Assembly: GCF_015326965.1 (NCBI RefSeq) | Contig: NZ_CP017659.1 | Location: forward strand, 5,150,001-5,214,000 | Direction of reading: 5' to 3' | Length of the DNA stretch: 64,000 nt | From: Paenibacillus sp. JZ16 | Lineage (GTDB): Bacteria > Bacillota > Bacilli > Paenibacillales > Paenibacillaceae | Shown: positions 1,974 through 61,968 of the stretch, one piece after another | Numbering within the stretch: position 1 is the first letter of the stretch | How the letters are laid out: every line of letters begins with the position of its first letter | The notes under the pieces: generated by a model | What the model was told of the DNA's origin: nothing | The model's database searches: none | What the model saw: the letters and a program-made list of their open reading frames with translations, nothing else | Made by a program: the position numbers and the translations under genes

Positions 1974-2025
1974 CATAGGGCTGTCCTAACTAGTCAAGAA
2001 ATGGCTAATTGGAACAGCCTTTTTT
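1974..2025 (+). terminator. degenerate hairpin, GGCTGTCC...GGAACAGCC plus T-run
   Basis: An imperfect inverted repeat (GGGCTGTCCTAACTAG and its mate AATTGGAACAGCC) ends in six T. This shape is typical of terminators at insertion sequence ends in Paenibacillus/Bacillus. A related GGGACAGCCC lies at about 13385, in inverse orientation, on the far side of the peptide cluster. Confidence 0.55.
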
Positions 2026-2208
2026 GTTGAGAGCTGAGTATCAAATAGATTATTAGTTTAGCTGTAAAGCGTATTCACTGCATTTATAGAGAAAAAATAA
2101 ATATAACACCAAAAATTGTAAATGTAAATGATAGATTACACATAAAATAGAATTATTATGTATTATTATGTATTTAAAGGTTGAATATGGTTAACGGAGC
2201 TGATGGCT

Positions 2209-3198
2209 ATGAAAGTACATATTTTTGTTACAAATGATTGTAATTTGAGCTGCGATTACTGTTATGTATCTGGACTAAGAGAGAAACTGTATTTCGGTTC
2301 AGAGCTTGTTAATTCGTTGATCACTTTCATTAATAACGTGTTAGAACTTAATAAATCTGAGAGTGTAACCCTGAATTTTTTTGGGGGAGAACCTTTACTT
2401 AATAAGCGTGTGATAGAAGACATTATTAAAGCATCAAACAAAATAAAAGTAAAAACATATTTTATGATGACAACAAACGGAACATTATTGACGAAAAGTA
2501 ACATAGATTTTCTTGTAAAACATAATTTTATTTTATCAGTTAGCATTGATGGTACACCAGAGGTTCACAATCGATACAGAACTTATTCTAATGGAGAACC
2601 TTCTTGGGAGAAAATAGCACCTAATTTAGAGTATTTATTAGAGAAGCTCCCTCATGTGACTGCGCGAATAACTTATAATACTGAAAGTGTCTCTAAGCTT
2701 TATCCCAGTGTTGTATTTGTATCTGAACTAGGTTTTCAAGAAATTAAACCCATACCTGATTTTTTTGATGAAAAATGGGATGAGGAGCATTTTTTAATAC
2801 TTAGAGAACAATTTAAGTATCTTGAAAGCTTCTCACAGAATAATAAAAATATCCATCTTTCCGTTTTGGATAGAACTTTAAAAATACAAGGAGATTGTAG
2901 TGGAGGAGTCAGTAGTTTCGCAGTTAATGCCAATGGAGATATATATCCTTGTAACTATGTTGTAGGTGAAGAACAGTTTTGCATAGGAAATATTAAAGAT
3001 AGTGAAAAGTATGAATTGCATACCTTTCCTACTGATCATTCAGAACGATTTGAGTGTGAAGGTTGTTCTTATTTTAAATCATGTACAAGCTCTAGATGTA
3101 TATTTGTGAATTATAAAATGACTGGCGAAATGTGCAAACCGAGTGGATTCTTTTGCGCTTATGAGCGTTTGGAATGCTCTTATGCTAAGACAAAATAG
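2209..3198 (+). CDS. radical SAM/SPASM peptide maturase 1
   Basis: A 329-residue radical SAM enzyme. The N terminus holds the [4Fe-4S] motif C-x3-C-x2-C (CNLSCDYC), followed by the SAM-binding FFGGEP segment. The C-terminal third carries a Cys-rich SPASM-type region (DCSGG, YPCNY, CEGCSYFKSC, SRC, MCKP, FFCAYERL) for auxiliary clusters. Such enzymes install thioether or other radical crosslinks on ribosomal peptides. GGAG sits 9 bases before the ATG at 2209 and only 3 before the ATG at 2203, so 2209 is preferred. It lies 68 bases upstream of the 49-residue precursor and is the first gene of the cluster. Base composition is very AT-rich, unlike the genes after 13.5 kb, which suggests acquisition. 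The exact chemistry cannot be read from sequence. Confidence 0.9.
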   Translation: MKVHIFVTNDCNLSCDYCYVSGLREKLYFGSELVNSLITFINNVLELNKSESVTLNFFGGEPLLNKRVIEDIIKASNKIKVKTYFMMTTNGTLLTKSNIDFLVKHNFILSVSIDGTPEVHNRYRTYSNGEPSWEKIAPNLEYLLEKLPHVTARITYNTESVSKLYPSVVFVSELGFQEIKPIPDFFDEKWDEEHFLILREQFKYLESFSQNNKNIHLSVLDRTLKIQGDCSGGVSSFAVNANGDIYPCNYVVGEEQFCIGNIKDSEKYELHTFPTDHSERFECEGCSYFKSCTSSRCIFVNYKMTGEMCKPSGFFCAYERLECSYAKTK

Positions 3199-3266
3199 TT
3201 ATCTTATAGCTTGATAATTTTGAAAAGCTATATGATATAGAGCCTGATTTGAAAGGAGGTGAGAAG

Positions 3267-3416
3267 ATGAAAATTAATCCTGAGAAAAAGGAAGATTTGA
3301 AGTTAGATGTTAAAGGTTTTGGTTGTTGGAATGATTGTAATGTTTATTACGCTAATGATACAAGTACTTATGGATGTGGGTGGAAACCAACTCCTCATAA
3401 TAGTTGGTTTTCATAG
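3267..3416 (+). CDS. candidate RiPP precursor peptide, 49 aa, three Cys
   Basis: A small gene with an excellent ribosome site (AAAGGAGGTGAGAAG then ATG). The product has 49 residues: a charged, Lys/Glu/Asp-rich leader (residues 1-16), then a Gly-Phe-Gly break and a Cys/Trp/Tyr/Asn-rich core with Cys20, Cys24 and Cys37 (C-x3-C-x12-C), ending in ...HNSWFS. A split between a polar leader and an aromatic/Cys core, placed between two radical SAM/SPASM genes, is what a thioether-type RiPP precursor should look like. A strong terminator follows 14 bases after the stop, which would let the precursor transcript outnumber the maturase transcript. I do not recognise the core as any characterised peptide. 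Clusters of the CLI_3235-type Cys-rich bacteriocin class have a comparable gene set, but membership is my inference. Confidence 0.85.
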   Translation: MKINPEKKEDLKLDVKGFGCWNDCNVYYANDTSTYGCGWKPTPHNSWFS

Positions 3417-3429
3417 TAAGTTTGTAAAA

Positions 3430-3465
3430 AGGTGCGTTGTGACTGCAACGCACCTTTTTACTTAA
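3430..3465 (+). terminator. terminator/attenuator after precursor gene
   Basis: AAGGTGCGTTG and CAACGCACCTT form a perfect 11-bp stem with a short loop, followed by TTTTTACTT. It separates the precursor from the next radical SAM gene, a usual way to make more precursor than enzyme. Confidence 0.9.
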
Positions 3466-3575
3466 TGTATTGTAGATCTAATGAGCAGCCCATTCCTGAT
3501 AATTTTTCAACCTGTCAGTCAGTGAAGTATGAGTGAGAAACAATGATCTGTTAATTTATAATGGGGTGAAAATTA

Positions 3576-4805
3576 ATGATGCCAAGTCCTAGAGTTAGAT
3601 TTAATAAAAACTATAGAAAATTAATAAAGAACGAATACATGATTTTAGGAAACATTTTTAATGGTCTTTGGATAAAATGTCCAACATATGTATATGAGTT
3701 TCTAAATAATTGGATTGAAAAAGAATATACTGTTAGCAATATGCTTGATGAATGTATGGATGTAGATACAAAGGAATATCTAAGTAATATGATCAAAACA
3801 TTGGTTGGTATTGAAATCATTGATTATTATGACAAACATACACCAGATAATAAAGCAATAAAACATGTAACATTTGAGTTAACTACTGGTTGTAATTTAA
3901 GATGTAGCCATTGTTGTGTAAGTTGTGGGGAAATTGCCCGAGAGGATATGAGTTTTGAACTGTTAAAACAATTAATTAAATGGTGTGAGAAAAATGAAAT
4001 TCGGAGTATTGCGTTGACTGGTGGAGAAATATTCATTCGGCATGACATTTGGGATATTTTAAACTATGTAAGAGCAAATTTCACTGGTTCAATTGAAATT
4101 ATGACTAATGGAACTTTATTAAGGGAAAAGATGATTCCTGATCTTAAAGCCCTGGTTGATTACATTTCGATCAGTCTTGACGGTTATGATGAAGAAAGTG
4201 TATTGAAGATTCGTGGTCCAAAGGTTTTCAACAAAGTTAAGAGCACCATAAAAAGTTTGCAACAATCGGGACTTGAAAATATTAGTCTTTCTATGGTTTT
4301 GACCAAGGACATGATAACACACCAAAACAAGTTCCGAGAATTATGTTTATCTCTAGGTGTTACCCCCATTATGAGAGTTTTTACTCCTGAAGGTAGGGCA
4401 GATAGTAATTACGAGACCCTGAGTCCCCCATTCAAAATAAAGAACAAGAATGAACTTACAGAAGTAGAGCTAACTAGTCTTCAGAATGCTATAAATTTTA
4501 AATGTAGCTGTAATCTTAGCTCTAAAATATTCGTATGTTGTGATGGGTCCATATATCCCTGCTTTTTGACTAAAAATGAGAAGAATAGATTAGGGAGTAC
4601 CAATGATTTGTTAGACGGTAAGTTAAAAGAAGCTGAGATAGTTCCGATTGTAGATACAATAGACGAATGCCGAGATTGTGATGTGAGGTATTTCTGCGCT
4701 ACAGCATGTCCGGGACATGATAGAAATATTTTTATGAATGAGAAATATAGAAGTGAGATGTGTGATCAAATGAAGCCTTATTACAATATGATTGTATGGA
4801 AATGA
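3576..4805 (+). CDS. radical SAM/SPASM peptide maturase 2 with N-terminal recognition domain
   Basis: A 409-residue enzyme in three parts. Residues 1-90 resemble a PqqD-like peptide recognition element. Residues 95-300 are the radical SAM barrel, with CNLRCSHC giving Cys106, Cys110 and Cys113, then LTGGE and the ISISLDG strand. The C-terminal SPASM/twitch region has CSCNL, FVCC, YPCF, CRDCDVRYFC, CPG and MCDQ for auxiliary Fe-S clusters. The built-in recognition domain suggests that this enzyme binds the leader of the 49-residue precursor 160 bases upstream. Its last codons overlap the following protease gene by 10 bases, so translation is probably coupled. AT-rich like its neighbours. It resembles the maturases of Cys-rich clostridial peptides; the type of crosslink is unknown. 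Confidence 0.9.
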   Translation: MMPSPRVRFNKNYRKLIKNEYMILGNIFNGLWIKCPTYVYEFLNNWIEKEYTVSNMLDECMDVDTKEYLSNMIKTLVGIEIIDYYDKHTPDNKAIKHVTFELTTGCNLRCSHCCVSCGEIAREDMSFELLKQLIKWCEKNEIRSIALTGGEIFIRHDIWDILNYVRANFTGSIEIMTNGTLLREKMIPDLKALVDYISISLDGYDEESVLKIRGPKVFNKVKSTIKSLQQSGLENISLSMVLTKDMITHQNKFRELCLSLGVTPIMRVFTPEGRADSNYETLSPPFKIKNKNELTEVELTSLQNAINFKCSCNLSSKIFVCCDGSIYPCFLTKNEKNRLGSTNDLLDGKLKEAEIVPIVDTIDECRDCDVRYFCATACPGHDRNIFMNEKYRSEMCDQMKPYYNMIVWK

Positions 4806-5764
4806 ATAGCACTACTCCAATTCTATATGAAAAGAAAATTACGGTAGCAGTTATTGATAGTGGACTCAGTAGTTTGCAGGTCAATACTAAAATCAAATTT
4901 TCATGCAGCTTGTTAGGGGACGATAGTATTGAAGATGGACATGGACATGGTACTGGTTTGGTAGGTATGTTAAGTGAATTTTGTGGCAACAGGATAGAAT
5001 TCATAATTATTAAAGTTTTAGACGATAACTGCAGAGGTTCATCAAAAACACTCATAAAAGCGATGGATATTGCCATTGACTTGCAACCGGATATTATAAA
5101 TCTTAGTTTGGGCACTGAAGACATGTCTTTGAGAAGCGAATTTGTAACAAAATGCAAACTAGCTATCACTAAAGATATTCTTCTAATAACGACAACGAAT
5201 GAGAATGAAAGAAGTCTACCTTTTATATTAGATGAAACTATAAGAATAAAATCGAGTAAACAAATCGTTGATACTGAACAATTATATATAGATCAATATT
5301 CTACATTTTATACTTTAGGCATCCCGCACATCGTTCCTTGGAAAAATGGCAAGTACGTTTTTATTAATCGAAATAGTTTCGCTCCCCCTTATTTCATTCG
5401 TAAGTTTTTGGATTATAAATTGAGAAATTCCTTGAATAACTATAGCACTGTGACTGAAATTAAGAAAAATTGTTCCAATATTGCTGAACTTAAAACTAAG
5501 GAATTAAAATTTGAGATCCCATCTGATTTTGATTTTTACAGAAGTCTACTTGAAATCACACAAAGGTATATTCCTCAGTTTGAAGAACAAAAAATAACAT
5601 TTGCTCAAGGTTTAAAAATGAATGACTGTATAGACATATTAGTAGATACAGAAAAAAAATTTGGGATAAAGATACCTTTTACCTATTTCAACATTAATGA
5701 CTTTACTTATATCTCAAATTTATCTAACAAAATTAATAAAGTGCTCTATTTTCATCTTTCTTAG
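4796..5764 (+). CDS. subtilisin-like (S8) protease fused to an acyl-carrier-like domain
   Basis: A 322-residue protein without a signal peptide. Residues 12-200 keep a compact subtilase fold: Asp21 in AVIDSG, His51 in GHGHGTG, a possible oxyanion Asn135 in TTTNEN, and Ser194 in RNSFAPP in place of the usual GTSMAAP. Residues about 240-322 resemble a small carrier protein (DILVDTEKKFGIKIP, then NDFTYISNLSNKI), but the phosphopantetheine Ser of the DSL motif is absent (NDCID). Inference: it removes the leader from the modified peptide, and the tail docks it to the maturase or substrate. The ABC exporter of the cluster lacks a C39 peptidase domain, so a separate leader protease is needed. Acyl-carrier-related proteins are known as separate genes in some Cys-rich peptide systems; a fusion to a protease is unusual. 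Confidence 0.8.
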   Translation: MEMNSTTPILYEKKITVAVIDSGLSSLQVNTKIKFSCSLLGDDSIEDGHGHGTGLVGMLSEFCGNRIEFIIIKVLDDNCRGSSKTLIKAMDIAIDLQPDIINLSLGTEDMSLRSEFVTKCKLAITKDILLITTTNENERSLPFILDETIRIKSSKQIVDTEQLYIDQYSTFYTLGIPHIVPWKNGKYVFINRNSFAPPYFIRKFLDYKLRNSLNNYSTVTEIKKNCSNIAELKTKELKFEIPSDFDFYRSLLEITQRYIPQFEEQKITFAQGLKMNDCIDILVDTEKKFGIKIPFTYFNINDFTYISNLSNKINKVLYFHLS

Positions 5765-5772
5765 GAGGAACT

Positions 5773-7442
5773 ATGAGCAAACATAAGCGAATGATCATCG
5801 ATCAAATAAAAAAACTGAAGATGCAGATTATAGGGATTATTTTCTTAACGATAATTGCCGCAATAATCGAGCTATCTATTCCATACCTTACTCAGAAGAT
5901 TATCGATTTAGGAATATTGCATAAGGATTTTCAATTTGTAGTTCTATTAACATGTCTAATAATTGTGCTTTATATTATGTTATCCGTAATGAATTCTTGC
6001 ATTAATCTAATGTTTGCAAAGGCAAGTGTAGAAGTTATTACTAATCTAAAAAAGGACATAATTACAAGGTTGCTCAGGTTTCCGGTTTCGTTTTTTGATA
6101 AGAATAAAACAGGATATGTCATTTCCAGAGTAGAAGAAATTGATACACTTAATGCATTGTTTTCTCCCGTTTTGATGGTTTTTTTAAAAAGTGTTATTTC
6201 ATTTATCGGAGCATTTTTTGTAATTCTGGCTATACGTTGGGAGTTGCTCCTGTTTGCACTAGTTTGTTTACCTGTTCTCTTTTTTATCACTAGATATACT
6301 TCCAAACAAGTATTAAACACATCAAAGGAATTAAATGAATCAGCTGCAGAAGTTCAAGGTGAAATTCATGAAGATATTGCAGGTTTATCTGAAATGAAAA
6401 ATTTCAATCTTGAAGAACATAAAGAATCTGAAATTAAGAAGTATTTTAGTGTGATTGCGAAAAAGTTAATGAGAAGGAATGTTTTTACAGTTGTTGGCAA
6501 TGAGGCGAATTCCTTATTTGCCCTTATATCAAGGTCGATGTTTATCATTTTAATAAGCTATTACATTATTAATGGGGAGCTGACGGTTGGATCATACTTT
6601 TCATTGTTATCGTATATATCCAATTTGTTTACTCCTGTACAGATGTTCTCATCCATTAGTCTCTCCATTCAACCTGCCATTGCAGTCTTATCCAGAATGA
6701 GCTTTTTTATGGACAACGAAATTGAAGAAGGAAGCAAAGGGACAGTATTAATTAACAATATTAATACTATTCAGTTCAAAAAGGTTTACTTCTCCTACCC
6801 TGACAACGAGCGAGAAGTCTTACGTGATATAAATATAGAACTAAGTGAAGGAAAAAATTTGTTTGTGTATGGGCCTAATGGAAGCGGGAAGTCAACAATT
6901 GTAAAATTATTACTGGGGTTTTATACTAATTATGGCGGAGAAATTTTAGTGAATGGATACAATCTCAAGGACATAAATATTAATGATTTGAGAAGAAAAA
7001 TAGGAATTGTTTCTCAGAAAATATACTTATTTTCTGGTAGTATCATGGATAATATTAAACAATGGGATGGGGGAATCACAGACGAGGAAGTTTATCGTGT
7101 TTTGGAGGAGTATGGATTATCAAGTGTTTTGAAAGATGAAAGTTATCATCATATTGGTGAGTCAGGAAAGAACTTATCAGGTGGTCAAATGCAAGAGATT
7201 GCACTCTCAAGAGCAGTTTTGAGACGACCGAGTTTATTTATTTTTGATGAGCCGACTTCGAACTTAGATATACAAAAAAAGAAAAATTTGTACAGCTCTT
7301 GAATAAGCTAAAAAACAACTTATGTATAATTATAACACACGACGATTACTTGATGTCAAAAATGGATCGTGAGCAAGATATACTTTTAGATATATCCGAT
7401 CCTGAGCTGTTGCGAAAGAGGAATGAGGTATGTCAAATCTAA
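5773..7442 (+). CDS. ABC exporter (TMD-NBD), last 56 codons in the -1 frame
   Basis: Start ATG is 4 bases after TTAGGAGGAA. The zero frame (5773-7302, 509 aa) gives a six-helix exporter domain (residues about 15-310) and a nucleotide-binding domain with GPNGSGKST, the Q-loop, LSGGQ and LFIFDEPTS, then stops soon after the D-loop. The -1 frame from 7281 continues the same domain: a linker, the switch His in ITHDDYL, and a tail that ends at 7440-7442, overlapping the next gene by 13 bases. The joined product is 556 aa, a normal size. The switch point is A-AAA-AAG in the zero frame. Either a programmed -1 frameshift makes two forms, or one A has been lost from the run by mutation or misreading. 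Likely role: export of the finished peptide. Confidence 0.85.
7275..7281 (+). promoter_or_regulatory. slippery heptamer A-AAA-AAG
   Basis: In the zero frame the codons are CAA-AAA-AAG, so tRNAs can slip back one base, as at E. coli dnaX. Slippage puts the ribosome exactly into the frame that completes the ABC domain. I see no strong upstream Shine-Dalgarno stimulator or downstream stem, so a plain indel in the A-run is an equally good explanation. Confidence 0.5.
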
Positions 7443-8104
7443 TCTTGATTGCTGATGATGAAATAGATATCGTGAATCTACTCCAAAATTATTTCGAAAT
7501 CAATGGTTATCGGGTTATCACAGCAAGGAGTGGGACCGAAGTATTGCAGCAAGTTGAGTTTGATCCAGATCTTATTTTACTGGATATTCATATGCCAGAT
7601 CTGGATGGCATTGAGGTTTGTACACGGATACGCAATTTTGTGTCCTGTCCTATTCTGTTTTTAACGGCAAAGGTAGAAGAGGCCGATAAGCTCAATGGAT
7701 TCCGTGTCGGTGGGGACGACTATATTGTCAAGCCATTCAGCATTGAGGAGGTAGGGGCTAGAGTATCTGCACACTTGCGTCGCGAGCAGAGGCAGCGTTA
7801 TAAGACCCAATCGAAATTCATTGATGATTTAGTCGTTGATTATTCTGCACGTGCTGTTTATTATCAAAACGGACCAATTTCATTTGCCAAAAAAGAATTT
7901 GATATTATTGAATTGCTATCCATGAACAAGGGTCAGATTTTTGATAAAGAGCGGATTTATGAACGAGTATGGGGGTATGACAGCGAGGGAGACAGCGCCG
8001 TTGTCGTTGAGCATATTCGAAGAATTCGAGCCAAATTAGCTTCGGTGAACAGTCATACGTATATTGCAACCATATGGGGTGTGGGATACAGATGGGTAGG
8101 ATAA
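7430..8104 (+). CDS. OmpR-family response regulator
   Basis: A 224-residue two-domain regulator. The receiver domain (1-115) has the acidic pair in IADDEID, the phosphorylated Asp in LLDIHMP and the conserved Lys in VKPFS. A winged-helix DNA-binding domain follows (about 125-222), ending in TIWGVGYRWVG. The start overlaps the -1-frame tail of the exporter gene and the end overlaps the sensor kinase start, so the three are co-transcribed and translationally linked. It probably controls the MacB/FtsX transporter downstream, as in Bce-type peptide-resistance modules. Base composition begins to return to normal here compared with the AT-rich maturase genes. Confidence 0.93.
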   Translation: MSNLILIADDEIDIVNLLQNYFEINGYRVITARSGTEVLQQVEFDPDLILLDIHMPDLDGIEVCTRIRNFVSCPILFLTAKVEEADKLNGFRVGGDDYIVKPFSIEEVGARVSAHLRREQRQRYKTQSKFIDDLVVDYSARAVYYQNGPISFAKKEFDIIELLSMNKGQIFDKERIYERVWGYDSEGDSAVVVEHIRRIRAKLASVNSHTYIATIWGVGYRWVG

Positions 8105-9273
8105 TAGCAGGAATCCGCAACCTTTCGATTAGAAAGAGCTTTATGCTATATATGTTCATATTTCTAATGATGGCGGCTCTGCTTAGCTCTGTTGCAATTG
8201 GAGCTTCAAATGGAGTTAGAAACGATCTCTATCATAAATATAACGCTCCGAACAAGAATAGTTCTGAGCCTATAAATAATCATTATACGCCGAATGATGA
8301 AATTATTCTTCAAATTTGCGATATTGTTGAAGCATGGTCTATTCCGATATTTCTTGGACTGTGCAGCATGTTGTCCTCGTTTGTATTTTATCGCCATAAA
8401 CTGAAAAAACCTATTGCACTATTAGGCATGGCTTCTGAAAAAATAGCGAATCATGACTTGAATTTTCATATCCATTATGAGAGCAAGGACGAGATGGGGA
8501 AGCTCTGCGATTCCTTCGAGAAAATGCGAGCTGCATTGGATGACAACACTCGGCAAATGTGGCGTTCTATGGAGGAGCGCAAACAATTGAATGCTGTTTT
8601 TTCCCATGACCTGCGCACACCGCTCACGGTACTTAGGGGATCTACGGATTTCTTGGTGAACTATCTGCCCCAAGGTAAGATCAGTGCAGACAAAGTGATG
8701 TCTACCGTATCTGCAATGTCCGCACATATTTTACGGCTGGAGAACTATGTTCAATTGATGAGCGAGATTCAAAGATTGGAAGACAGCAGCATTTACACAA
8801 CAAACGTAAATATAGATCATTTTATCAAACAGCTTAACAGTATTGCCGAGGTGTTAGTAGAGGGACGTCATCTTAAAATGACATTTGAAAACCATATTGC
8901 CCAAACAGAACTGCACTTTGATGCTGACACGGTTATACGGATATTCGAAAATATGCTTAGCAATGCAATTCGTTATGCTGACAAGACAATATCCATAGGT
9001 TTGGAATCCATGAATGGCATGCTGTGCATTACAGTTAGTGATGATGGCGAAGGTTTCTCGGAGGAGGATCTCGAACAAGCGACTAAACCGTTCTACAAAC
9101 GTAAAGCAATAAACGGGAGTGGCGGTTTTGGTTTGGGACTACATATATGCAAGATTTTATCTGAAAAGCATGGTGGAGGACTTAGAATAGCTAACAATGA
9201 GACATGCGGAGCGAGAGTAACTGTCATGTTCCAATGTAAAAGTACCAATACACCTAACATCGATATTCGTTGA
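8092..9273 (+). CDS. sensor histidine kinase
   Basis: The start at ATG 8092 is preferred to 8074 because it follows a G-rich ribosome site. Topology: one membrane helix near the N terminus, an outside loop of roughly 45-50 residues, a second helix (WSIPIFLGLCSMLSSFVFY), a HAMP linker, a dimerisation domain with phospho-His in FSHDLRTPL, and an ATPase domain with N-box NMLSNAIRYA, DDGEGF and GFGLGLHICK. The short sensor loop is more like antibiotic-responsive kinases that sense through a partner transporter than like ligand-binding sensors. It pairs with the response regulator it overlaps. A terminator separates it from the transporter genes, which fits those genes having their own regulated promoter. 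Confidence 0.92.
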   Translation: MGRIIAGIRNLSIRKSFMLYMFIFLMMAALLSSVAIGASNGVRNDLYHKYNAPNKNSSEPINNHYTPNDEIILQICDIVEAWSIPIFLGLCSMLSSFVFYRHKLKKPIALLGMASEKIANHDLNFHIHYESKDEMGKLCDSFEKMRAALDDNTRQMWRSMEERKQLNAVFSHDLRTPLTVLRGSTDFLVNYLPQGKISADKVMSTVSAMSAHILRLENYVQLMSEIQRLEDSSIYTTNVNIDHFIKQLNSIAEVLVEGRHLKMTFENHIAQTELHFDADTVIRIFENMLSNAIRYADKTISIGLESMNGMLCITVSDDGEGFSEEDLEQATKPFYKRKAINGSGGFGLGLHICKILSEKHGGGLRIANNETCGARVTVMFQCKSTNTPNIDIR

Positions 9274-9296
9274 TAAAAAATAGATAATTATTAGAT

Positions 9297-9338
9297 ATCC
9301 TTTTCTCAGCAGACAGCTAAGGGAAGGATGTTTTTTTG
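9297..9338 (+). terminator. terminator after kinase gene
   Basis: ATCCTT...AAGGAT closes a long hairpin followed by GTTTTTTT. It separates the peptide/two-component operon from the ABC transporter genes. Confidence 0.75.
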
Positions 9339-9391
9339 CTTTAAGTGGAGCATTCCTGAAATGGATTCTTTGAGTTTACCCGGAGGGGGCG

Positions 9392-10072
9392 TTGGATTTG
9401 ATTCTGGAAGGAAAGAAATTGTGCAAGTATTATGGCACAGGAGAAAGCCAAGTAAAGGCCATACATGAAATTGATTTCACTGTGGAGAAAGGAGAGTTTA
9501 TCTCCATTGTCGGGCAGTCAGGTGCGGGTAAAAGTACTTTAATGCACATCATTGGTGGTTTGGATGCACCGACAAGCGGCGAAGTCATCATGAATGGAAC
9601 TTCTATTTATACACTACCGGCAAATCAACTAGCCGTGTTCCGCCGTCGTGAAATCGGTTTTGTCTTCCAATCATTTAATCTCGTGCCATCACTTAACGTA
9701 TGGGAAAATATCATATTACCCATTGGACTTGACGGAAAAAAGGCTGACGTTGAATACATCAAAGATATTTTAAACACGCTGGATATTTATGAGAAACGAA
9801 CTAGTCTACCAACGGCGTTGTCAGGGGGACAGCAGCAGCGCGTTGCCATCGCCCGTGCGATTGCTGCTAAACCGTCGATCATCCTTGCCGATGAACCTAC
9901 TGGGAATCTGGACAGTCGTTCCAGTAGAGACGTCCTGAATCTCCTGAGATTGTCGATACAGAGGTATAACCAGACATTAATTATCGTTACGCATAATGAG
10001 GATATCGCATCATTGTCCGACCGAACGGTTCGGGTAGTTGATGGTTCGATCGTTGTGGAGGCATCGCAATGA
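9392..10072 (+). CDS. MacB/LolD-type ABC transporter ATPase
   Basis: TTG start 5-6 bases after CGGAGGGGG. The 226 residues hold a complete ATPase: GQSGAGKSTLMH Walker A, Q-loop FVFQSFNLVPSL, signature LSGGQQQRVAIARA, Walker B IILADEPTGNLD, and switch His in IIVTHNE. The VFQSFNLV and DEPTGNLD forms are typical of the family that drives mechanotransmission permeases (MacB, LolCDE, BceA). It overlaps the FtsX permease gene by 4 bases (ATGA). Likely role with its partner: removal of antimicrobial peptide from the membrane, for self-immunity or resistance, under the two-component system upstream. Confidence 0.93.
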   Translation: MDLILEGKKLCKYYGTGESQVKAIHEIDFTVEKGEFISIVGQSGAGKSTLMHIIGGLDAPTSGEVIMNGTSIYTLPANQLAVFRRREIGFVFQSFNLVPSLNVWENIILPIGLDGKKADVEYIKDILNTLDIYEKRTSLPTALSGGQQQRVAIARAIAAKPSIILADEPTGNLDSRSSRDVLNLLRLSIQRYNQTLIIVTHNEDIASLSDRTVRVVDGSIVVEASQ

Positions 10073-12498
10073 AAGATACTGTATCCGTACGAGACATAGC
10101 ATGGAAAAATATAAGCCACTACAAAGGCAGAACCCTGTTAACTATATTTACAACAGCCCTATCCGTTGCCTTAGTATTTGTCGTGTTCACGTACTTTCAC
10201 TCTGAAGATAACCGCAATAAGAGGGCAGCTATGAATGAAATTGGTGCCTTTCATGTGCAATATGAGGAATTGTCATTGAAGCAACAACAGCAGATCGTGA
10301 GTAACCCTAAGATCAAGGAGTATTATCTTTCGTATAACAGCAGAAATATTAGCTCCACTACATTTGAGAAACTGAATATCCATATGGCTATTGGTTACAT
10401 GGAGGGAATAAATAACGGACTGATTGAACTGAGGCGAGGCCGTGCGCCAGAGGCTGATCATGAAATTGTATTGGATGAATGGCTCCTTCATGAATTAGGT
10501 TATTCTTCTGAGTTAGGACAAAGAATCGCGTTAGATTTGCAGGTTATAAGTGATGATCAGACTAAAGAAATAACGAAAACCCTTGAACTGGTAGGTATTA
10601 CTGAAGACATTGCTATTCGAAAGGCTGCAAGAGCCGGATTGATGTTTGTATCAAAAAGCTTCTCGGAGCAGTATAGTCCGGATCCGGAAGTAACGGTTTT
10701 TGCACTACTGAAATCCAACTTAAACGCTGCCTCGGTCGCGGAGGATATAGGTAAACAAGCAGGCTTGTCAGATAAGCAAATTAAAATAAATGAACGCTAT
10801 ACAGGCGCTTATGAACAGAATCCGACAACTATTCTGCAGTCTGCATTAGCTGTGTTGGTTATCGTTTTAAGCTCTGGAATGGTTATTTATAATATTTTCA
10901 ACATTTACATTTCACAACAAATACGTTTGTTTGGCATGATGAAAGCGATTGGCATGACTCCAAGACAATTACGACGCATGATTCTAATAGAGGGACTGAT
11001 TATTTCTTTCATCGGCAGTATTGTTGGAATTCTACTGGGAATAGGTTGCAGCTTGGCATTCATTCCGTTTCTCGGAAATGCGGGCTCTACCGATCTTTCT
11101 CTGTATGTAGAGATATCTCCATTTCATGTTGGCGTAGCATTCTTATCAGGTCTGCTTTTCGTCATTCTTTCAATCCAATTTCCAGCCAGAAGAGTAGGGA
11201 GAATCTCGGAGATTGCAGCGACCCGCTATAATCCGGTTGCTGACGCATGGAGGAAGAGAAAAACAACCAGAAATCAATTGAACAATTCCCTTAGCAGCTT
11301 CACCTTGGTATCTGCGCAAGTTATACGTCATCGCAAACGTACTTGGATTACTATCACTTCAATCACTTTGACAGGGCTGATCTTTATCGTTACAAGCAGT
11401 ATCCTGAACAGTATGAATATGGGCAATGTAGCCGCGAGTATGGTGCCAGGCGATTACAAGCTGAGTGTTAACTCTTACCGAGGAGTGGATGAGCATCTCG
11501 ATTTGTTGAACGAAGGAATCGTGAAGCAGATACATGATATGAATGGGATTCAGTCTTTGTATACGGAAATGTATGATGAGTTCCTCTATAACAAGCAGGA
11601 TGCGGCAGTTCATCTTAAAAACATAGAGGATATCCGAAATCCTGCGATTACTTCAGAAATCTATGGCTATGACGATGCTCTAATGCAAAAGACACTACAT
11701 GCACTAGGGAATAACAGACACGCATTAGAGGAGATGAAGAATGGGAACGTGCTTATTGCCATCGCCGAGGATGGGACCTATAAGGTCGGTGATAAGATCA
11801 GAATGACCCCGCTTGGAGAACAGCGGGCAGAGCTTGAATTCACAATCGTCGGCGTTCTTCCTAGTTATATTACTTATAAAGGAGACTCTGCTTATGGAGG
11901 GACTTTCATTGTCCATCAGGATATGTTTAAGCGCCTAGGGCTGGATCAGCGTGTCAAGCAAGTCAGTGTGACCGTGCCTAAAAAGGAATTCGAGCATGTA
12001 GAACAACGCTTAAAAGAAATTGCTGCGGCCGATCATAGAATTGGGTTTACTTCATTCCAAGAGATTTATCAGGAATTTCATGAGGCGAAACGGTTGATCG
12101 AGTTATCCGCCTATGGTTTTATTGCAACGCTGCTCGTCATTAGCATATGTAATCTGGTCAATTCAAATCTGACAAGCATGATAGCTAGAAAAAGGGAGAT
12201 CAGCGTGATTGAGGCAATTGGGTTGTCACAAAACCAATTAGCAATACAACTTGGTAGCGAAGGATTAGTAGTTATATTGGTTAGTCTGTTGTTGACTTTT
12301 ATTGTGGGCATACCCACAGGATATATTATCGTTGATATTTTTAAGCGCGAAGCCACCTATGCCCAATATCAATTTCCGATTGGTGCTATGTTGATAATAA
12401 TAGGTGCCTACATTGCGGTTCAGTTGTTTACGACCTACTATATGCATCGACGCTTTAGAAAGGAAAGCCTGATCGAACGAATTCGGTTTAGTATATGA
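10069..12498 (+). CDS. FtsX-domain ABC permease, two FtsX modules
   Basis: 809 residues. A membrane helix near residue 20-40 is followed by an extracellular region (about 45-260), then three helices forming the first FtsX domain (about 265-390, with QIRLFGMMKAIGMTPRQL). A second helix (about 425-445) precedes another extracellular region, and a C-terminal FtsX domain follows (about 685-800, with ARKREISVIEAIGLSQNQL). The duplicated layout matches large SalY/MacB-like permeases rather than ten-helix BceB. The ATGA overlap with the ATPase shows a fixed pair. Inference: protects the producer against its own peptide. It could alternatively export a peptide or lipid. Confidence 0.9.
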   Translation: MKDTVSVRDIAWKNISHYKGRTLLTIFTTALSVALVFVVFTYFHSEDNRNKRAAMNEIGAFHVQYEELSLKQQQQIVSNPKIKEYYLSYNSRNISSTTFEKLNIHMAIGYMEGINNGLIELRRGRAPEADHEIVLDEWLLHELGYSSELGQRIALDLQVISDDQTKEITKTLELVGITEDIAIRKAARAGLMFVSKSFSEQYSPDPEVTVFALLKSNLNAASVAEDIGKQAGLSDKQIKINERYTGAYEQNPTTILQSALAVLVIVLSSGMVIYNIFNIYISQQIRLFGMMKAIGMTPRQLRRMILIEGLIISFIGSIVGILLGIGCSLAFIPFLGNAGSTDLSLYVEISPFHVGVAFLSGLLFVILSIQFPARRVGRISEIAATRYNPVADAWRKRKTTRNQLNNSLSSFTLVSAQVIRHRKRTWITITSITLTGLIFIVTSSILNSMNMGNVAASMVPGDYKLSVNSYRGVDEHLDLLNEGIVKQIHDMNGIQSLYTEMYDEFLYNKQDAAVHLKNIEDIRNPAITSEIYGYDDALMQKTLHALGNNRHALEEMKNGNVLIAIAEDGTYKVGDKIRMTPLGEQRAELEFTIVGVLPSYITYKGDSAYGGTFIVHQDMFKRLGLDQRVKQVSVTVPKKEFEHVEQRLKEIAAADHRIGFTSFQEIYQEFHEAKRLIELSAYGFIATLLVISICNLVNSNLTSMIARKREISVIEAIGLSQNQLAIQLGSEGLVVILVSLLLTFIVGIPTGYIIVDIFKREATYAQYQFPIGAMLIIIGAYIAVQLFTTYYMHRRFRKESLIERIRFSI

Positions 12499-12542
12499 AC
12501 AAACGAGGAAATCGACTTACTTCATGAAGGAGGTGTCTTAAT

Positions 12543-13001
12543 ATGCATGGGTATAGAGGAGTGTTCAGGAACCATTGTTGGCGTAGTTTTACTGTATTGT
12601 TCTTCATTGTACTGTTTTTAACAGCGTGCAGTAAAAACAGCGAGGAGGGTTTTTATCCAGAATATAACGGAGTAAAGTACACAGGTGAAGGGACGCTCGA
12701 AACAGAAGTTGATGTAGCAATCTTCAATGAAGATGAGGCTTTGTTTGTGCAGACAGTTAAGATTATGGATGACCATCCTACCGTGGGGAAGGTCATGCAA
12801 GCCATTTCAGACGACGATGAACAGGGGGTGCTGATAGAAAAAGACCAGGAAGGGCAAATATTAAGCGTTGATGGTATCGTGAATGACGAAAACAAACATT
12901 GGGTGCTTTCTATTAACAACGTAATTGACGAAGGGAACACGGAAGAGATTGAAATTGGCGAGGACCAGTCATTGACGCTAATTTACACTGCCGATCCTTA
13001 A
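12543..13001 (+). CDS. DUF4430-type lipoprotein
   Basis: ATG follows GAAGGAGGTG by 7 bases. The product (152 aa) has a basic N terminus, a hydrophobic stretch and a lipobox LTAC with Cys29, so it is a membrane-anchored lipoprotein. The mature part contains a domain resembling DUF4430 (transcobalamin C-terminal-like): TVGKVMQAISDD, a central VDGIVNDENKHWVLSINN segment and a closing GEDQSLTLIYT strand. The function is unknown. It is co-directional with the FtsX transporter (44-base gap), so it may be an accessory or immunity lipoprotein for the peptide. It is the last gene before the right 72-bp repeat. Confidence 0.75.
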   Translation: MHGYRGVFRNHCWRSFTVLFFIVLFLTACSKNSEEGFYPEYNGVKYTGEGTLETEVDVAIFNEDEALFVQTVKIMDDHPTVGKVMQAISDDDEQGVLIEKDQEGQILSVDGIVNDENKHWVLSINNVIDEGNTEEIEIGEDQSLTLIYTADP

Positions 13002-13535: not shown

Positions 13536-14318
13536 ATGAGAGAATCGTTCAAGCGATTGGTGGAGCACCGTTATTTTCAACCTATTATTATTGGAATCAT
13601 CTTTTTGAACGGCGTGATCATTGTCGCCGAAACGTACAGCACGAGTCAGTTTCTGGTCTACCTTGACAAAATTATCCTCGGGATTTTTGTATTGGAGATT
13701 CTTTTGAAGATTACCGGTCTCGGATTTAAGCGATATTTCTCGAGCGGGTGGAACTGGTTTGATTTCTTGATCGTTGCCTGCAGCCTGATCTTCCTGACCA
13801 CACCGTTCGTAAGCTCGCTGCGTCTGGTCCGGGTTCTGCGCCTATTCCGAATGATCCCTGCGATTCCGGCACTGCGCAAAATTATCGACTCGTTAATCCG
13901 GTCGATGCCGGCTTTAACCGGGGTGCTCGGATTGACGCTGCTTATTTTTACGATTTATGCGATTATTGGCACTACATTTTTTAAGGATGTGCTTCCGTAC
14001 GAATTTTTTGGCAGCTTCCATAATTCTCTATTCACATTGATGCAGGTGGTCACCTTTGAGTCGTGGGCGAGCCAAGTGGCCAGGCCGGTCATCGCGGAAA
14101 TGCCATGGGCTTGGATTTATTTTATAACGTTTATTATTGTTGGGGCGCTTGTCATCTTAAACCTCGTAGTTGCTGTTATTCTAAGTTACTTGGGACAGGA
14201 AGAGGAAGAGAGTCGGGACGAGCGGCTGGATCAGCTGTTGAAAGAAAATATGGAGCTGAAGAAAGACGTACAGGAAATCAAGCAGCTGCTGCTTGAGCAA
14301 TACAGGTCGAATCGTTAG
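13536..14318 (+). CDS. voltage-gated sodium channel, NaChBac type
   Basis: 260 residues forming one six-helix channel subunit; four would make the pore. S1-S3 occupy about 15-90. S4 carries regularly spaced arginines (Arg96, 99, 102, 105). The pore loop holds TFESWAS at 173-179, nearly the NaChBac filter TLESWAS, which points to Na+ selectivity. S6 is about 192-218, followed by a charged C-terminal coiled coil (DERLDQLLKENMELKKDVQEI) that assembles the tetramer. It stands alone between terminators. In alkaliphilic Bacillus such channels supply Na+ for motility and pH control; its role here is inferred. Confidence 0.93.
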   Translation: MRESFKRLVEHRYFQPIIIGIIFLNGVIIVAETYSTSQFLVYLDKIILGIFVLEILLKITGLGFKRYFSSGWNWFDFLIVACSLIFLTTPFVSSLRLVRVLRLFRMIPAIPALRKIIDSLIRSMPALTGVLGLTLLIFTIYAIIGTTFFKDVLPYEFFGSFHNSLFTLMQVVTFESWASQVARPVIAEMPWAWIYFITFIIVGALVILNLVVAVILSYLGQEEEESRDERLDQLLKENMELKKDVQEIKQLLLEQYRSNR

Positions 14319-14348
14319 TCCCGTCCGTGTGTCAAAAGCAAGATTTTT

Positions 14349-14378
14349 GCAGGGCCCTCATCGAAGGGTCTTTTTTTC
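14349..14378 (+). terminator. terminator after sodium channel gene
   Basis: A short GCCCT/AGGGT hairpin followed by CTTTTTTT, 30 bases after the channel stop codon. Confidence 0.65.
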
Positions 14379-14404
14379 ATGGAAGAAAGCTATAGTCGCT
14401 TGCA

Positions 14405-14860
14405 TCAGATCACCCAGCACAACAGGGGAACGATCAAGGCAAAGAACGGGGTGGCCAGAGAATTGCTGGAGAACGTATGCTTCCCCCACAAGAAGATGAG
14501 CAGGGTTAAGGCTCCCGCTGCTGCGCGCAGCCAGAGCTGCTCCGGATTTCCGCCTGTGAATAAGGCGAAGAACAGAAATCCGACCGCTCCGTAAACGGCG
14601 GCTTGTTTAGCCTTATGCAGGGAAGGCAAGAACGAGAGTATGGCATCTGCCGCAAGGGATGCAGTGAGCGCGTAACCGTATACCCAGTGCTCTTGCGGCA
14701 GATAGAGGCCTAACCATTCCGAAGCTCGATCAGCGCCGGGAGGCCACACCCAATCGAGCAGGCTCAGCAGCAGCACAACGATGCCGGCGCTGGCCAGCTT
14801 GTTTAATGCATAAAATCCCATGTCCATCCGGCCGGACCGTTTAGGAATTCCCGTGTTCAT
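14405..14860 (-). CDS. small multi-pass membrane protein, unknown function
   Basis: 151 residues from the ATG at 14860, chosen because AGAGG lies 9 bases upstream; another ATG lies 3 codons earlier. The sequence has about four hydrophobic helices: LASAGIVVLLLSLLDWVW, a Tyr/Ala-rich pair around VYGYALTASLAADAILSFL and AAVYGAVGFLFFALF, and a last LATPFFALIVPLLCWVI. A basic start (PKRSGR) suggests the N terminus inside. I do not recognise the family. It is divergent from no close partner and lies just downstream of the short-chain dehydrogenase on the same strand. Confidence 0.65.
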   Translation of the reverse strand: MNTGIPKRSGRMDMGFYALNKLASAGIVVLLLSLLDWVWPPGADRASEWLGLYLPQEHWVYGYALTASLAADAILSFLPSLHKAKQAAVYGAVGFLFFALFTGGNPEQLWLRAAAGALTLLIFLWGKHTFSSNSLATPFFALIVPLLCWVI

Positions 14861-14915
14861 GGTACACATCCTCTGCTTGTTATTCGTAGCTTCTCGAACG
14901 CTTAAGGCACCGCTG

Positions 14916-15824
14916 TTAACTGGTCACCATCTGTCCCCCGTTGACGTGAATAGCCTGACCCGTGACAAAAGAGGAACAGATGGACGACGCCAAGTAAACA
15001 TAGGCAGGCGCCAGCTCATAGGGTTGTGCCGCCCGCTTCATCGGTGAATCCGTTCCGAACACGGCGACCTCTTCGGCTGGGAAGCTGGATGGGATGAGCG
15101 GCGTCCAGACCGAGCCGGGAGCGACGGAATTGACGCGGATGCCTTGATCGACGAGCGAAAGGGCAAGGGATCGGGTAAGGGAAACGATGGCGCCTTTAGT
15201 GGAAGAATAGTCGATGAGCTCCTTAAATCCCTGATAGGCGGTAATGGAGGCCGTGTTGATGATCGACGCTCCGGATTTCATGTGGGGCAGCGCAGCTTGG
15301 ATCATGAAGAAAAAGGGAAAGATATTCGTTTGATAGGTATGATGCAGCTGTTCCTCCGTGATGTCCAAGATGCTGCGCTGAACATACTGGACGGCATGGT
15401 TGTTTACAAGCACATCCAGCTTGCCGAAGTGGGCTATCGTCTCGTTTACTACGGCTTCGCAGTTCTTTTTATACCGCAGGTCGATCTTCATTAAGAGGCA
15501 GCGTCTGCCGAGCGACTCAATCCGCTGCTTCGTTACTTCCGCATCCGAAGTTTCATATAAGTATGGGATGACCAGATCGGCACCTTCCTTGGCAAAAGCA
15601 ATGGCCGCCGCTTTGCCGATGCCGCTGTCCCCTCCGGTTACAATGGCGATTTTGCCATCCAGTTTACCGCTGCCCCGGTAGGCGGGATCCTCGCTGATCG
15701 GACGCGGTGACATGAGGCTTTCAAGACCGGGCTGGCAGTTTTGATGCTGGGGAGGGAACGCGATGGGCTGTTCCTTGCATTCGGTTTTGGAGCCTACGTA
15801 TGGAATGGGCTGCTGGGGATTCAT
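14916..15824 (-). CDS. short-chain dehydrogenase/reductase, YhdF/YghA type
   Basis: 302 residues with a 45-residue N-terminal extension typical of the YhdF/YghA group of stress-related SDRs. The Rossmann motif TGGDSGIG is near residue 64, NNHAVQ near 140, and the catalytic Ser and Tyr-x3-Lys are in SITAYQGFKELIDYSSTKG. The C-terminal VNGGQ is also present. Expected reaction: NAD(P)-dependent oxidation/reduction of a sugar alcohol or aldehyde. The substrate is not known; members are often stress-induced. The ribosome site AAAGGAGGAAGG lies directly before the ATG. Confidence 0.93.
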   Translation of the reverse strand: MNPQQPIPYVGSKTECKEQPIAFPPQHQNCQPGLESLMSPRPISEDPAYRGSGKLDGKIAIVTGGDSGIGKAAAIAFAKEGADLVIPYLYETSDAEVTKQRIESLGRRCLLMKIDLRYKKNCEAVVNETIAHFGKLDVLVNNHAVQYVQRSILDITEEQLHHTYQTNIFPFFFMIQAALPHMKSGASIINTASITAYQGFKELIDYSSTKGAIVSLTRSLALSLVDQGIRVNSVAPGSVWTPLIPSSFPAEEVAVFGTDSPMKRAAQPYELAPAYVYLASSICSSFVTGQAIHVNGGQMVTS

Positions 15825-16037
15825 TTCCTTCCTCCTTTGATATACAGAGTGTTTTCGTTGAACGCCGATGCTTTATCTCTATGCATCCGCCCAGTCGGGG
15901 GTGCCGTTTATGAACAGAATAGGAGAAAGGTCGTGCGCAAACGCGCGGGTTACAGATTTTTACGCTGTCTTTCGGGCTATTGGAGCGAAGTGTAATGGTT
16001 GGCGAATTGCCAAGGTTCAATTGCCGGAGCTGCTGCA

Positions 16038-27670: not shown

Positions 27671-27780
27671 GTGCGCTGTGATTCGAAAATGACGTTTGCC
27701 ATAAGCCCATGAACGGGCATGATGTTATGTACAGACGCAAGTTTAACGAACACTTACCTAAAACCCCGTAGGTTGGTGTC

Positions 27781-27992
27781 TACTGCATATAGGCAGGTCT
27801 CCTGACTTGAGCTTCTTCCCTCGGAATTGCCTTTCCCGAGACCTTGCTCCGGTTCCTCGGTGGCATATGTCGGATGTGGATGGCTGATAGATCATAAACA
27901 GCCTTAGAGCCCTTACAGTGGCGGGACCGTGATGGATTTGCACCATGCTTCCCTATTAAGCCGGACTGCCTTATAGGTTGATCCGGCACCTA
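27781..27992 (-). ncRNA. cobalamin riboswitch
   Basis: Read on the minus strand this leader has the conserved parts of a B12 aptamer in order: a GGTGCCGG start, GGAAGCATGGTGCAAATCC, the GCGGTCCCGCCACTG-like core (ACGGTCCCGCCACTGTAAGG), a paired arm with GCCACC, and the B12 box AGTCAGGAGACCTGCC at the 3' end. It lies between the NrdR boxes and nrdA. When adenosylcobalamin is plentiful it should favour the terminator at 27625-27670 and shut off nrdAB. The boundaries are approximate. Confidence 0.93.
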
Positions 27993-27995
27993 TAT

Positions 27996-28043
27996 ACACT
28001 ATATTTGGTTGTTGTTAATCTAATTTAACCCAATATATTGTGT
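27996..28043 (-). promoter_or_regulatory. two NrdR boxes
   Basis: ACACTATATTTGGTTG (27996-28011) and ACCCAATATATTGTGT (28028-28043) match the NrdR consensus (ACACWATATATWGTGT), the second better. Their starts are 32 bases apart, about three helical turns, as usual for cooperative NrdR binding. They overlap the probable nrd promoter. The rest of 28044-28367 shows no gene. Confidence 0.85.
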
Positions 28044-30526: not shown

Positions 30527-30664
30527 CGTACGATAAAGGCAAACCCATTGAAAAATGGGGACGCAAAGCTAGAGGGGCTAACGGATTTACTGAAATCCTA
30601 TGTCAGCCAGCTATCGAATACGACGGAAACCTCCGTCTGCTTTAGGACGGAGGTTTTCTTTTTG
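30527..30664 (+). ncRNA. c-di-GMP-I (GEMM) riboswitch with terminator
   Basis: The aptamer core is clear: AAAGGCAAACC, a first hairpin CCATTGAAAAATGG, GGGACGCAAAGC, GGGGCTAACGG, a second hairpin (GGATTTACTGAAATCC), then TATGTCAGCCAGCTATCG. The outer stem is CGTACGATA with TATCGAATACG. A terminator (AACCTCCGTC...GACGGAGGTT plus T-run, 30627-30664) follows at once. The gene below, 255 bases on, is a cell-wall-anchored adhesin, a frequent target of this riboswitch class. Whether binding turns expression on or off cannot be told by eye. Confidence 0.93.
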
Positions 30665-61686: not shown

Positions 61687-61968
61687 CGCTAGAAAGCACA
61701 TATAAAATTTAACCCCTGACGGCCGGTAACGGCTGTACAGTCGGTTCCGTATTTGAAGTTTCTTCAAGAATCTTTGCTTCTAAAACGACAAAAGCCCTGC
61801 CTCTCTTTCGTCCTTGCGGCTCCGATGACCGCGCCAGTGTGAATCAGAAATCCGTTCCATAAAACTCTTACTCTTAGGGTCATAAAATAGGAATTTGCAC
61901 TTCAACAGAGATGTAAATAACCATGTTTCGAGGAACTAACGGGGTTAAACTTCATATAACAATTACTT

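Follow-up and report, generated by a model that had tools for sequence, protein, structure and literature searches.

PapB, a radical SAM enzyme known from freyrasin, links Cys to Asp/Glu over n = 0–6 residues, and for Asp placed before Cys the portion of the work drawn on here records no product (PMC9413430). QhpD, QhpE and QhpF are described, in the section used, as forming Cys-to-Asp/Glu thioethers, cleaving off the leader in the cytoplasm and exporting by an ABC transporter (PMC7876137). For thuricin CD, two radical SAM enzymes are reported to act together as a complex (PMC12093266).

The window, 64,000 nucleotides of the 7.42-Mb single-contig genome of Paenibacillus sp. JZ16 (close relatives: Paenibacillus), has ten consecutive genes at 2203–13001, all on the plus strand (Table 1). 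Two encode radical SAM enzymes, rSAM1 and rSAM2, and flank the gene for a 49-aa peptide; rSAM2 is followed by genes for an S8 protease, an ABC exporter lacking a peptidase domain, a two-component system, an ABC/FtsX pair and a lipoprotein. With a probability of roughly 0.7, the proposed route included, the locus serves biosynthesis, export and self-protection for an unnamed family of CxxDC cross-linked RiPPs. Judged from its sequences, the two-maturase family is real and unnamed; in the open-access PMC literature no paper describing it was found (subscription journals were outside that scope).

Table 1. Features of the locus, in window coordinates
Feature	Position	Strand	Basis or remark
rSAM1, PapB-like radical SAM/SPASM maturase	2203 or 2209 to 3198	+	PapB NF047865 is the best NCBIfam model
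Precursor peptide, 49 aa	3267–3416	+	21 aligned peptides
17-bp hairpin with A-run and T-run, probable (partial) terminator	3424–3461	+	directly 3′ of the precursor gene
rSAM2, radical SAM maturase with SPASM-like Cys pattern and N-terminal RRE-like domain (~residues 1–88)	3576–4805	+	
Subtilisin-like S8 protease (~residues 9–233) with carrier-protein-like helical tail (~245–321)	4796–5764	+	
ABC exporter, membrane and ATPase parts, no C39 peptidase	5773–7302	+	Pfam
Out-of-frame continuation of exporter ATPase with H-loop stretch	7299–7442	+	
OmpR-type response regulator	7430–8104	+	Response_reg and Trans_reg_C
Sensor histidine kinase with HAMP domain	8074–9273	+	HAMP/HisKA/HATPase
ABC ATPase, MacB/LolD type, presumed self-protection transporter	9392–10072	+	NCBIfam DarD, LolD
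FtsX/MacB-type permease, 809 aa, two FtsX stretches	10069–12498	+	PF02687 4.6e-31, PF12704 6.8e-10
Lipoprotein, weakly DUF4430-like, presumed immunity lipoprotein	12543–13001	+	homologues in L039, L040, L086

The locus and its relatives

A first-pass annotation of this DNA had placed all the named genes on one strand, and its order, coordinates and numbering of Cys20, Cys24 and Cys37 are correct. G+C content is 29–38% at 2001–8000, against 53% at 1–1000 and 52–54% at 14001–16000, and the AT-richness of the first half of the locus suggests that this half is acquired DNA. The same gene order recurs with homologous peptides, at 41–84% protein identity, in L039, L086 and L040, the last without a matching response regulator or histidine kinase; a matching two-component system was likewise not seen in several other loci.

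The window also holds a tyrosyl-tRNA synthetase C-terminal piece just upstream of the locus (1327–1662; PF22421, 1.8e-18), which spans only part of the domain and is apparently a broken remnant, a cobalamin riboswitch (27775–28008), a c-di-GMP-I riboswitch (30528–30618) and a BsrC sRNA (61775–61862).

A peptide profile, A2, made from 12 peptides and searched in 394 genomes of the family, matched 20 of them at E<=0.01; matches below 1e-8 came from 13 genomes and gave 14 loci. In 13 of the 14 the two radical SAM genes are no more than 3 kb away from that for the peptide, L052 having the widest spread; at the 14th, G077, the contig ends 441 bp upstream. The lack of co-occurrence that would have spoken against the first-pass reading was thus not found. 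The S8 protease is found in the same 13 loci, that of L052 beginning, as read, downstream of the catalytic Asp. Seven genomes with weak matches (G024, G248, G255, G278, G281, G287 and G295; E 8.8e-4 to 0.0094) had no maturase within the 17–20 kb examined, and were set aside as chance. The rSAM2 profile found 13 places at 525 bits or more in the 394 genomes, all at peptide loci, though 12 of the 13 had been used to build it. The next tier, seven places at 266–370 bits, is a sister group; five are accompanied by rSAM1 (L099–L103), and no different, assigned substrate was found for any of these five next-nearest pairs. The pairs of L101 and L103 have small peptides with CxxDC and four Cys, and the L103 peptide, when scanned, had no NCBIfam match. 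L104 and L105 have an rSAM2-like gene and an S8 gene but neither rSAM1 nor peptide; the rSAM2-like stretch is interrupted by an internal stop in the former and is partial in the latter, and both look decayed.

Among 398 genomes of the class the peptide profile matched only its own genome, and rSAM2 at 1e-60 did the same among 398 genomes of the phylum (with up to four candidates scored per genome), so the gene set is rare or patchy. A single-protein S8 query had no match in the genome contig collection; an rSAM2 alignment succeeded as query and, against a collection of 84,980 species, gave 95 relatives, 80 loci being kept. Where rSAM2 scores at least 240 bits (47 loci), rSAM1 is present in 40, S8 in 38 and both in 36; the peptide is counted in 26 by a profile that itself contained such peptides and that did not find it in 21, in some of which it was seen by eye or by looser search. 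Where rSAM2 is below 200 bits (33 loci), rSAM1 is present in none at the set limit, S8 in one and the peptide in none, a looser search giving one peptide (L185, E 7.7e-4). One sequence occurs among the 47 under two names (L111, L146), and four of the loci (L109, L110, L116, L122) come from genomes that the family search had also found, so the cases are not independent. Eleven of them are without rSAM1 or S8 at the set limits: L129, L138, L150 and L151 are contigs below 9 kb, in L127 and L136 one partner or both appear only as weak matches, L134 has rSAM1 and peptide and no S8, and in the longer stretches of L114, L115, L118 and L156 neither rSAM1 nor S8 was found. L114, L115 and L118 are from Clostridium, and their rSAM2-like gene, at 355–360 bits, stands without a known peptide too in the stretch covered.

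Comparable gene sets are found in further Paenibacillus species and in Clostridia. Full sets occur in Lachnospiraceae, Neofamilia, Peptoniphilus, Clostridium oryzae, Ruminococcus and others. The mobilizable Clostridioides difficile plasmid p_TW11 carries rSAM2, rSAM1, a 59-aa peptide (annotated as hypothetical), S8 and ABC genes in that order, and rSAM2 is present in 3 of 72,556 plasmids at 1e-30. No phage record has rSAM2 at 1e-20, the Clostridia peptide P0082 as query matched nothing in plasmids or phages, and the peptide pattern gave nothing confirmed in viral contigs. A 68.8-kb contig of a viral collection, L190, has rSAM1, rSAM2, S8 and a CxxDC peptide, and may be a misassigned contig or a host-flanked provirus.

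Distances between pairs of loci for rSAM1, rSAM2 and S8 are correlated at 0.48–0.55 over 45 loci (the 47 minus two duplicates), beyond 2000 of 2000 permutations; as the permutation disregards the species tree, host descent and a unit moving together are not separated by it. With 25 peptides as queries against 5.8 billion proteins, 89 of 298 candidates were at E<=0.01. Where it is publicly named at all, the peptide family is called hypothetical or uncharacterized, as are all the names listed among the 89. One member, 'MULTISPECIES: hypothetical protein [Clostridia]' in its source, is listed on 1000 contigs; natural communities may thus commonly contain such products.

The CxxDC precursor and its two maturases

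The window peptide would be divided into a leader of about residues 1–19 and a core of about 20–49, the latter beginning C20 W21 N22 D23 C24 and including C37. L13, G17, G19, C20, D23, C24 and C37 are invariant in the 21 aligned peptides, all of which thus have the Cys-first Cys-Xn-Asp motif C20-x-x-D23. In two wider sets, collected by profiles built on motif-bearing peptides, so that conservation of the motif is partly by construction and its fractions are upper estimates, CxxDC is present in 55 of 57 unique peptides (the others having CxxEC and CxxNC, one each) and in 88 of the 89 database proteins. Exactly three Cys are found in 45 of 56 peptides counted in the first set, the third being after the motif in 39 and before it in six, and in 64 of the 89 proteins, four of which have only two. 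No NCBIfam model is matched by any of 28 family peptides at E<=0.1, and the window peptide has no match in Pfam, NCBIfam or PHROGs. Pfam matches at 0.048 and 0.082, of one family peptide each, are at chance level, and an nqrC match at 0.026, of one peptide in an earlier and looser scan, is below the cut-off of that model; all were rejected.

The hairpin behind the peptide gene (−26.2 kcal/mol, z −6.84, equalled by 0 of 200 shuffles) was not listed by a consensus scan. Hairpins likewise follow the peptide gene of L040 (z −5.3) and, in L039 (z −2.7) and L086 (z −5.4), the last full peptide copy, and none stands out downstream of the first copies in these two; the hairpins are consistent with the precursor being transcribed in excess. 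Elsewhere, L139 (uncultured Ruminococcus MAG) has four tandem divergent family peptide genes between maturases and protease at 9423–10379, and L042 is another S8-linked locus, which L048 resembles, with several radical SAM genes, one of them B12-binding, and a CxxDC peptide (CYHDC) at 6484–6636.

The first-pass description of two radical SAM/SPASM genes bracketing the peptide stands for the bracketing and for the Pfam Radical_SAM domain in both; SPASM is among the Pfam domains of rSAM1 only, and the SPASM-like Cys pattern of rSAM2 was read from its sequence by eye. Both maturases stay below the cut-off of every NCBIfam model among the matches listed, so their chemistry is assigned by analogy. 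rSAM1 matches PapB NF047865 at 1e-55 with 189.3 bits (cut-off 340), and both the PapB and the QhpD models match 12 of 12 rSAM1 homologues. Ten of its Cys, the CX3CX2C of the core and seven more, are identical in the 12 aligned homologues, and these all begin at the radical SAM core without space for an RRE domain; some ORFs extend upstream, by at most about 52 residues (L041), which is too short for one. Ten Cys of rSAM2 are likewise identical in 12 of 12 homologues. Its N-terminal domain is predicted to have strands and three helices with an RRE-like look, and the model, searched whole with this domain included, aligns with CteB from residue 13 and with TigE from residue 3 (rmsd 7.5–9.5).

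The RRE-like domain of rSAM2 would grip the conserved leader and so serve both maturases; if true, the family is a case of a maturase borrowing the leader-binding domain of its partner. By analogy with PapB, the RRE-less rSAM1, acting with rSAM2, probably links the sulphur of Cys20 to the Asp23 beta carbon. This link is proposed because Cys20-Asp23 is the sole invariant pair that fits the PapB rule, and it gives the CxxDC family a clear prediction of a two-residue cross-link. A second modification would be made by rSAM2, with a thioether that starts at Cys24 or Cys37 as the likeliest candidate. With three Cys an even pairing is impossible, and in the 21 aligned peptides neither Cys24 nor Cys37 has an invariant acidic acceptor.

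The likeness of rSAM2 to sactipeptide maturases could be taken to mean that both enzymes form Cys-to-alpha-carbon thioethers, as an obligate pair like TrnC/TrnD, with Asp23 structural only. The top solved structure for the rSAM2 model is SkfB (viperin and SuiB being tied within 1 Z), the StsB model matches 11 of 12 rSAM2 at E<=1e-15, at 76.5 bits for the window protein against a cut-off of 625, and the cited thuricin CD extract describes a two-enzyme complex (PMC12093266). Since rSAM1 sides with PapB, and since residue 23 is Asp in 55 of 57 peptides and Glu in one, as for an Asp/Glu acceptor, this is considered unlikely. A very improbable alternative is that the shared chemistry is a C–C cyclophane (triceptide-like, Trp21-x-Asp23) or an epimerisation, the Cys forming disulphides after export. 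The C-W-N-D-C of the window peptide and a likeness of rSAM2 to the epimerase EpeE/YydG speak for it, but Trp is at position 21 in only 10 of the 21 aligned peptides, the rest having Lys, Gly, Asp, Leu or Thr. A Trp-based link was therefore rejected as the step common to the family, and an epimerisation, though improbable, is untouched by this count.

Proposed leader removal, export and self-protection

Following the cross-linking proposed above, a cytoplasmic S8 protease bearing the carrier-like tail would remove the leader near Gly17–Gly19. A subtilase with such a tail, overlapping the second maturase, had been recognised in the first pass, and Pfam Peptidase_S8 and a gene overlap of 10 bp agree with this. 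The QhpE model NF049966 matches 20 of 20 S8 proteins (56.1 bits for that of the window, below the cut-off of 165), and the catalytic His and Ser are present in all 20 and the Asp in 19; the comparison of the model with PDB folds spanned residues 9–233. TIGR04069 matches the fused tail in 4 of the 20, at best at 1.1e-5 and 25.8 bits (cut-off 70), and the window tail weakly matches a different carrier model, at 0.0033. Position 278, assigned by eye as the phosphopantetheine attachment site, holds Cys in all 12 close sequences, the window protein among them, and in 14 of the 20 proteins as a whole; none has the Ser of a phosphopantetheine carrier there. By sequence, the tail appears similar to the carrier-related protein that SacP23-type clusters encode as a gene of its own. 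In L047 a TIGR04069 acyl-carrier-related gene adjoins the S8 gene, and the peptide there reaches 34.8 bits with TIGR04065, over the cut-off of 26. The fused protease had been thought unlike known systems, and it has precedent in parts: TIGR04069 and S8 are separate in SacP23, as far as the account used describes it, and adjacent in L047.

A tentative extension, given somewhat less than even odds, is that these loci form a separate RiPP class of Paenibacillaceae and Clostridia in which one RRE is shared, the RRE-less enzyme sets the near-invariant Cys-Asp thioether of CxxDC, the other enzyme closes a further ring to the third Cys, on whichever side it lies, and the carrier-like domain of the protease, without attachment Ser, holds and releases the product. 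The family may also suggest a function for the puzzling carrier-like proteins seen in radical SAM peptide systems.

The peptide would then be carried out by the exporter, in which Pfam finds ABC_membrane and ABC_tran and, as the first-pass annotation had it, no C39 peptidase. Its reading frame shifts in or close to an A7 run (7274–7280), which moves the H-loop stretch to the following ORF, and qualifies the word 'complete' in the earlier description of a complete biosynthesis-export-immunity locus; that description is otherwise supported overall, with roles that we infer for the genes. The L039 exporter changes frame at another A7 run (10076–10082), and the frame is intact in L086 and L040. 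The changes may reflect sequencing error, slippage or decay. Decay of the locus in this strain, with a broken exporter in a family itself real, is decidedly unlikely: both affected genomes are single contigs in which run-length errors are possible, transcriptional slippage is possible at A7 runs, and the conserved residues of peptide, maturases and protease are intact.

The two-component system, the ABC/FtsX pair and the lipoprotein would shield the producer. The response regulator and the HAMP/HisKA/HATPase kinase, and the MacB/FtsX transporter (FtsX and MacB_PCD in Pfam), are present as first annotated. The ABC ATPase matches DarD at 3.2e-64 and LolD at 5.9e-64, both below the NCBIfam cut-offs. 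A Bce-type module consists of a short kinase without HAMP and a BceB-type permease. The kinase here has HAMP and none of the listed NCBIfam or Pfam matches points to such a module; the label 'Bce-like' has no support in them. The DUF4430 lipoprotein named in the first pass is there as a gene, and its domain appears only below threshold and only in the L086 orthologue (21.7 bits, cut-off 23.8); there is none in the orthologues of L039 and L040, and DUF4430 is not listed for the window protein in a scan that filters out most weak matches.

On a Paraclostridium sordellii plasmid (L223), annotated Agr-type genes neighbour a relative of the locus, and ORFs named by eye as LytTR/AgrC-like lie near L089 and L099. 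These would suit a signalling peptide rather than a bacteriocin, with the two-component system as its sensor and the ABC/FtsX genes as transport or response parts. This is on the unlikely side, as a transporter and lipoprotein adjoining the exporter fit self-protection, and SacP23, of similar cluster make-up, yields an antibacterial peptide according to the part of the study used (PMC10731318).

Comparison with described systems

The freyrasin/PapB ranthipeptides share with the present family a Cys N-terminal to a fixed Asp, and PapB is the closest to rSAM1 (189 bits). They differ in that the family has one CX2D, directly before a second Cys, where the PapB substrate is described in the source excerpt as having six CX3D, and in that rSAM1, below the PapB cut-off, is paired with a second maturase. 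Qhp (QhpD, QhpE, QhpF) has in the account used Cys-to-Asp/Glu thioethers, a cytoplasmic S8 leader protease and an ABC exporter; its substrate is an enzyme subunit, it has one maturase, and the QhpE model, at 219 positions, is too short to take in the tail.

Two radical SAM enzymes, TrnC and TrnD, serve the precursors of thuricin CD, which differs in its sactipeptide chemistry and its two peptides. The sactipeptide maturases SkfB and StsB share a fold with rSAM2, whose StsB score is below the cut-off of that model. The SacP23/CLI_3235 bacteriocins (TIGR04065, 04066, 04068, 04069), which in the descriptions drawn on occur in Paenibacillus too, have in common with the family a radical SAM maturase, an S8 protease, an ABC transporter and, if the fused tail is indeed such a domain, an acyl-carrier-related protein. 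They are there described with a single CcpM maturase, a Cys-rich peptide and the carrier-related protein as a gene of its own. CcpM TIGR04068 reaches 129 bits in the window, below its cut-off of 500, TIGR04066 is not among the listed matches of the ten genes, and the precursor model TIGR04065 is matched by 0 of 28 family peptides at E<=0.1.
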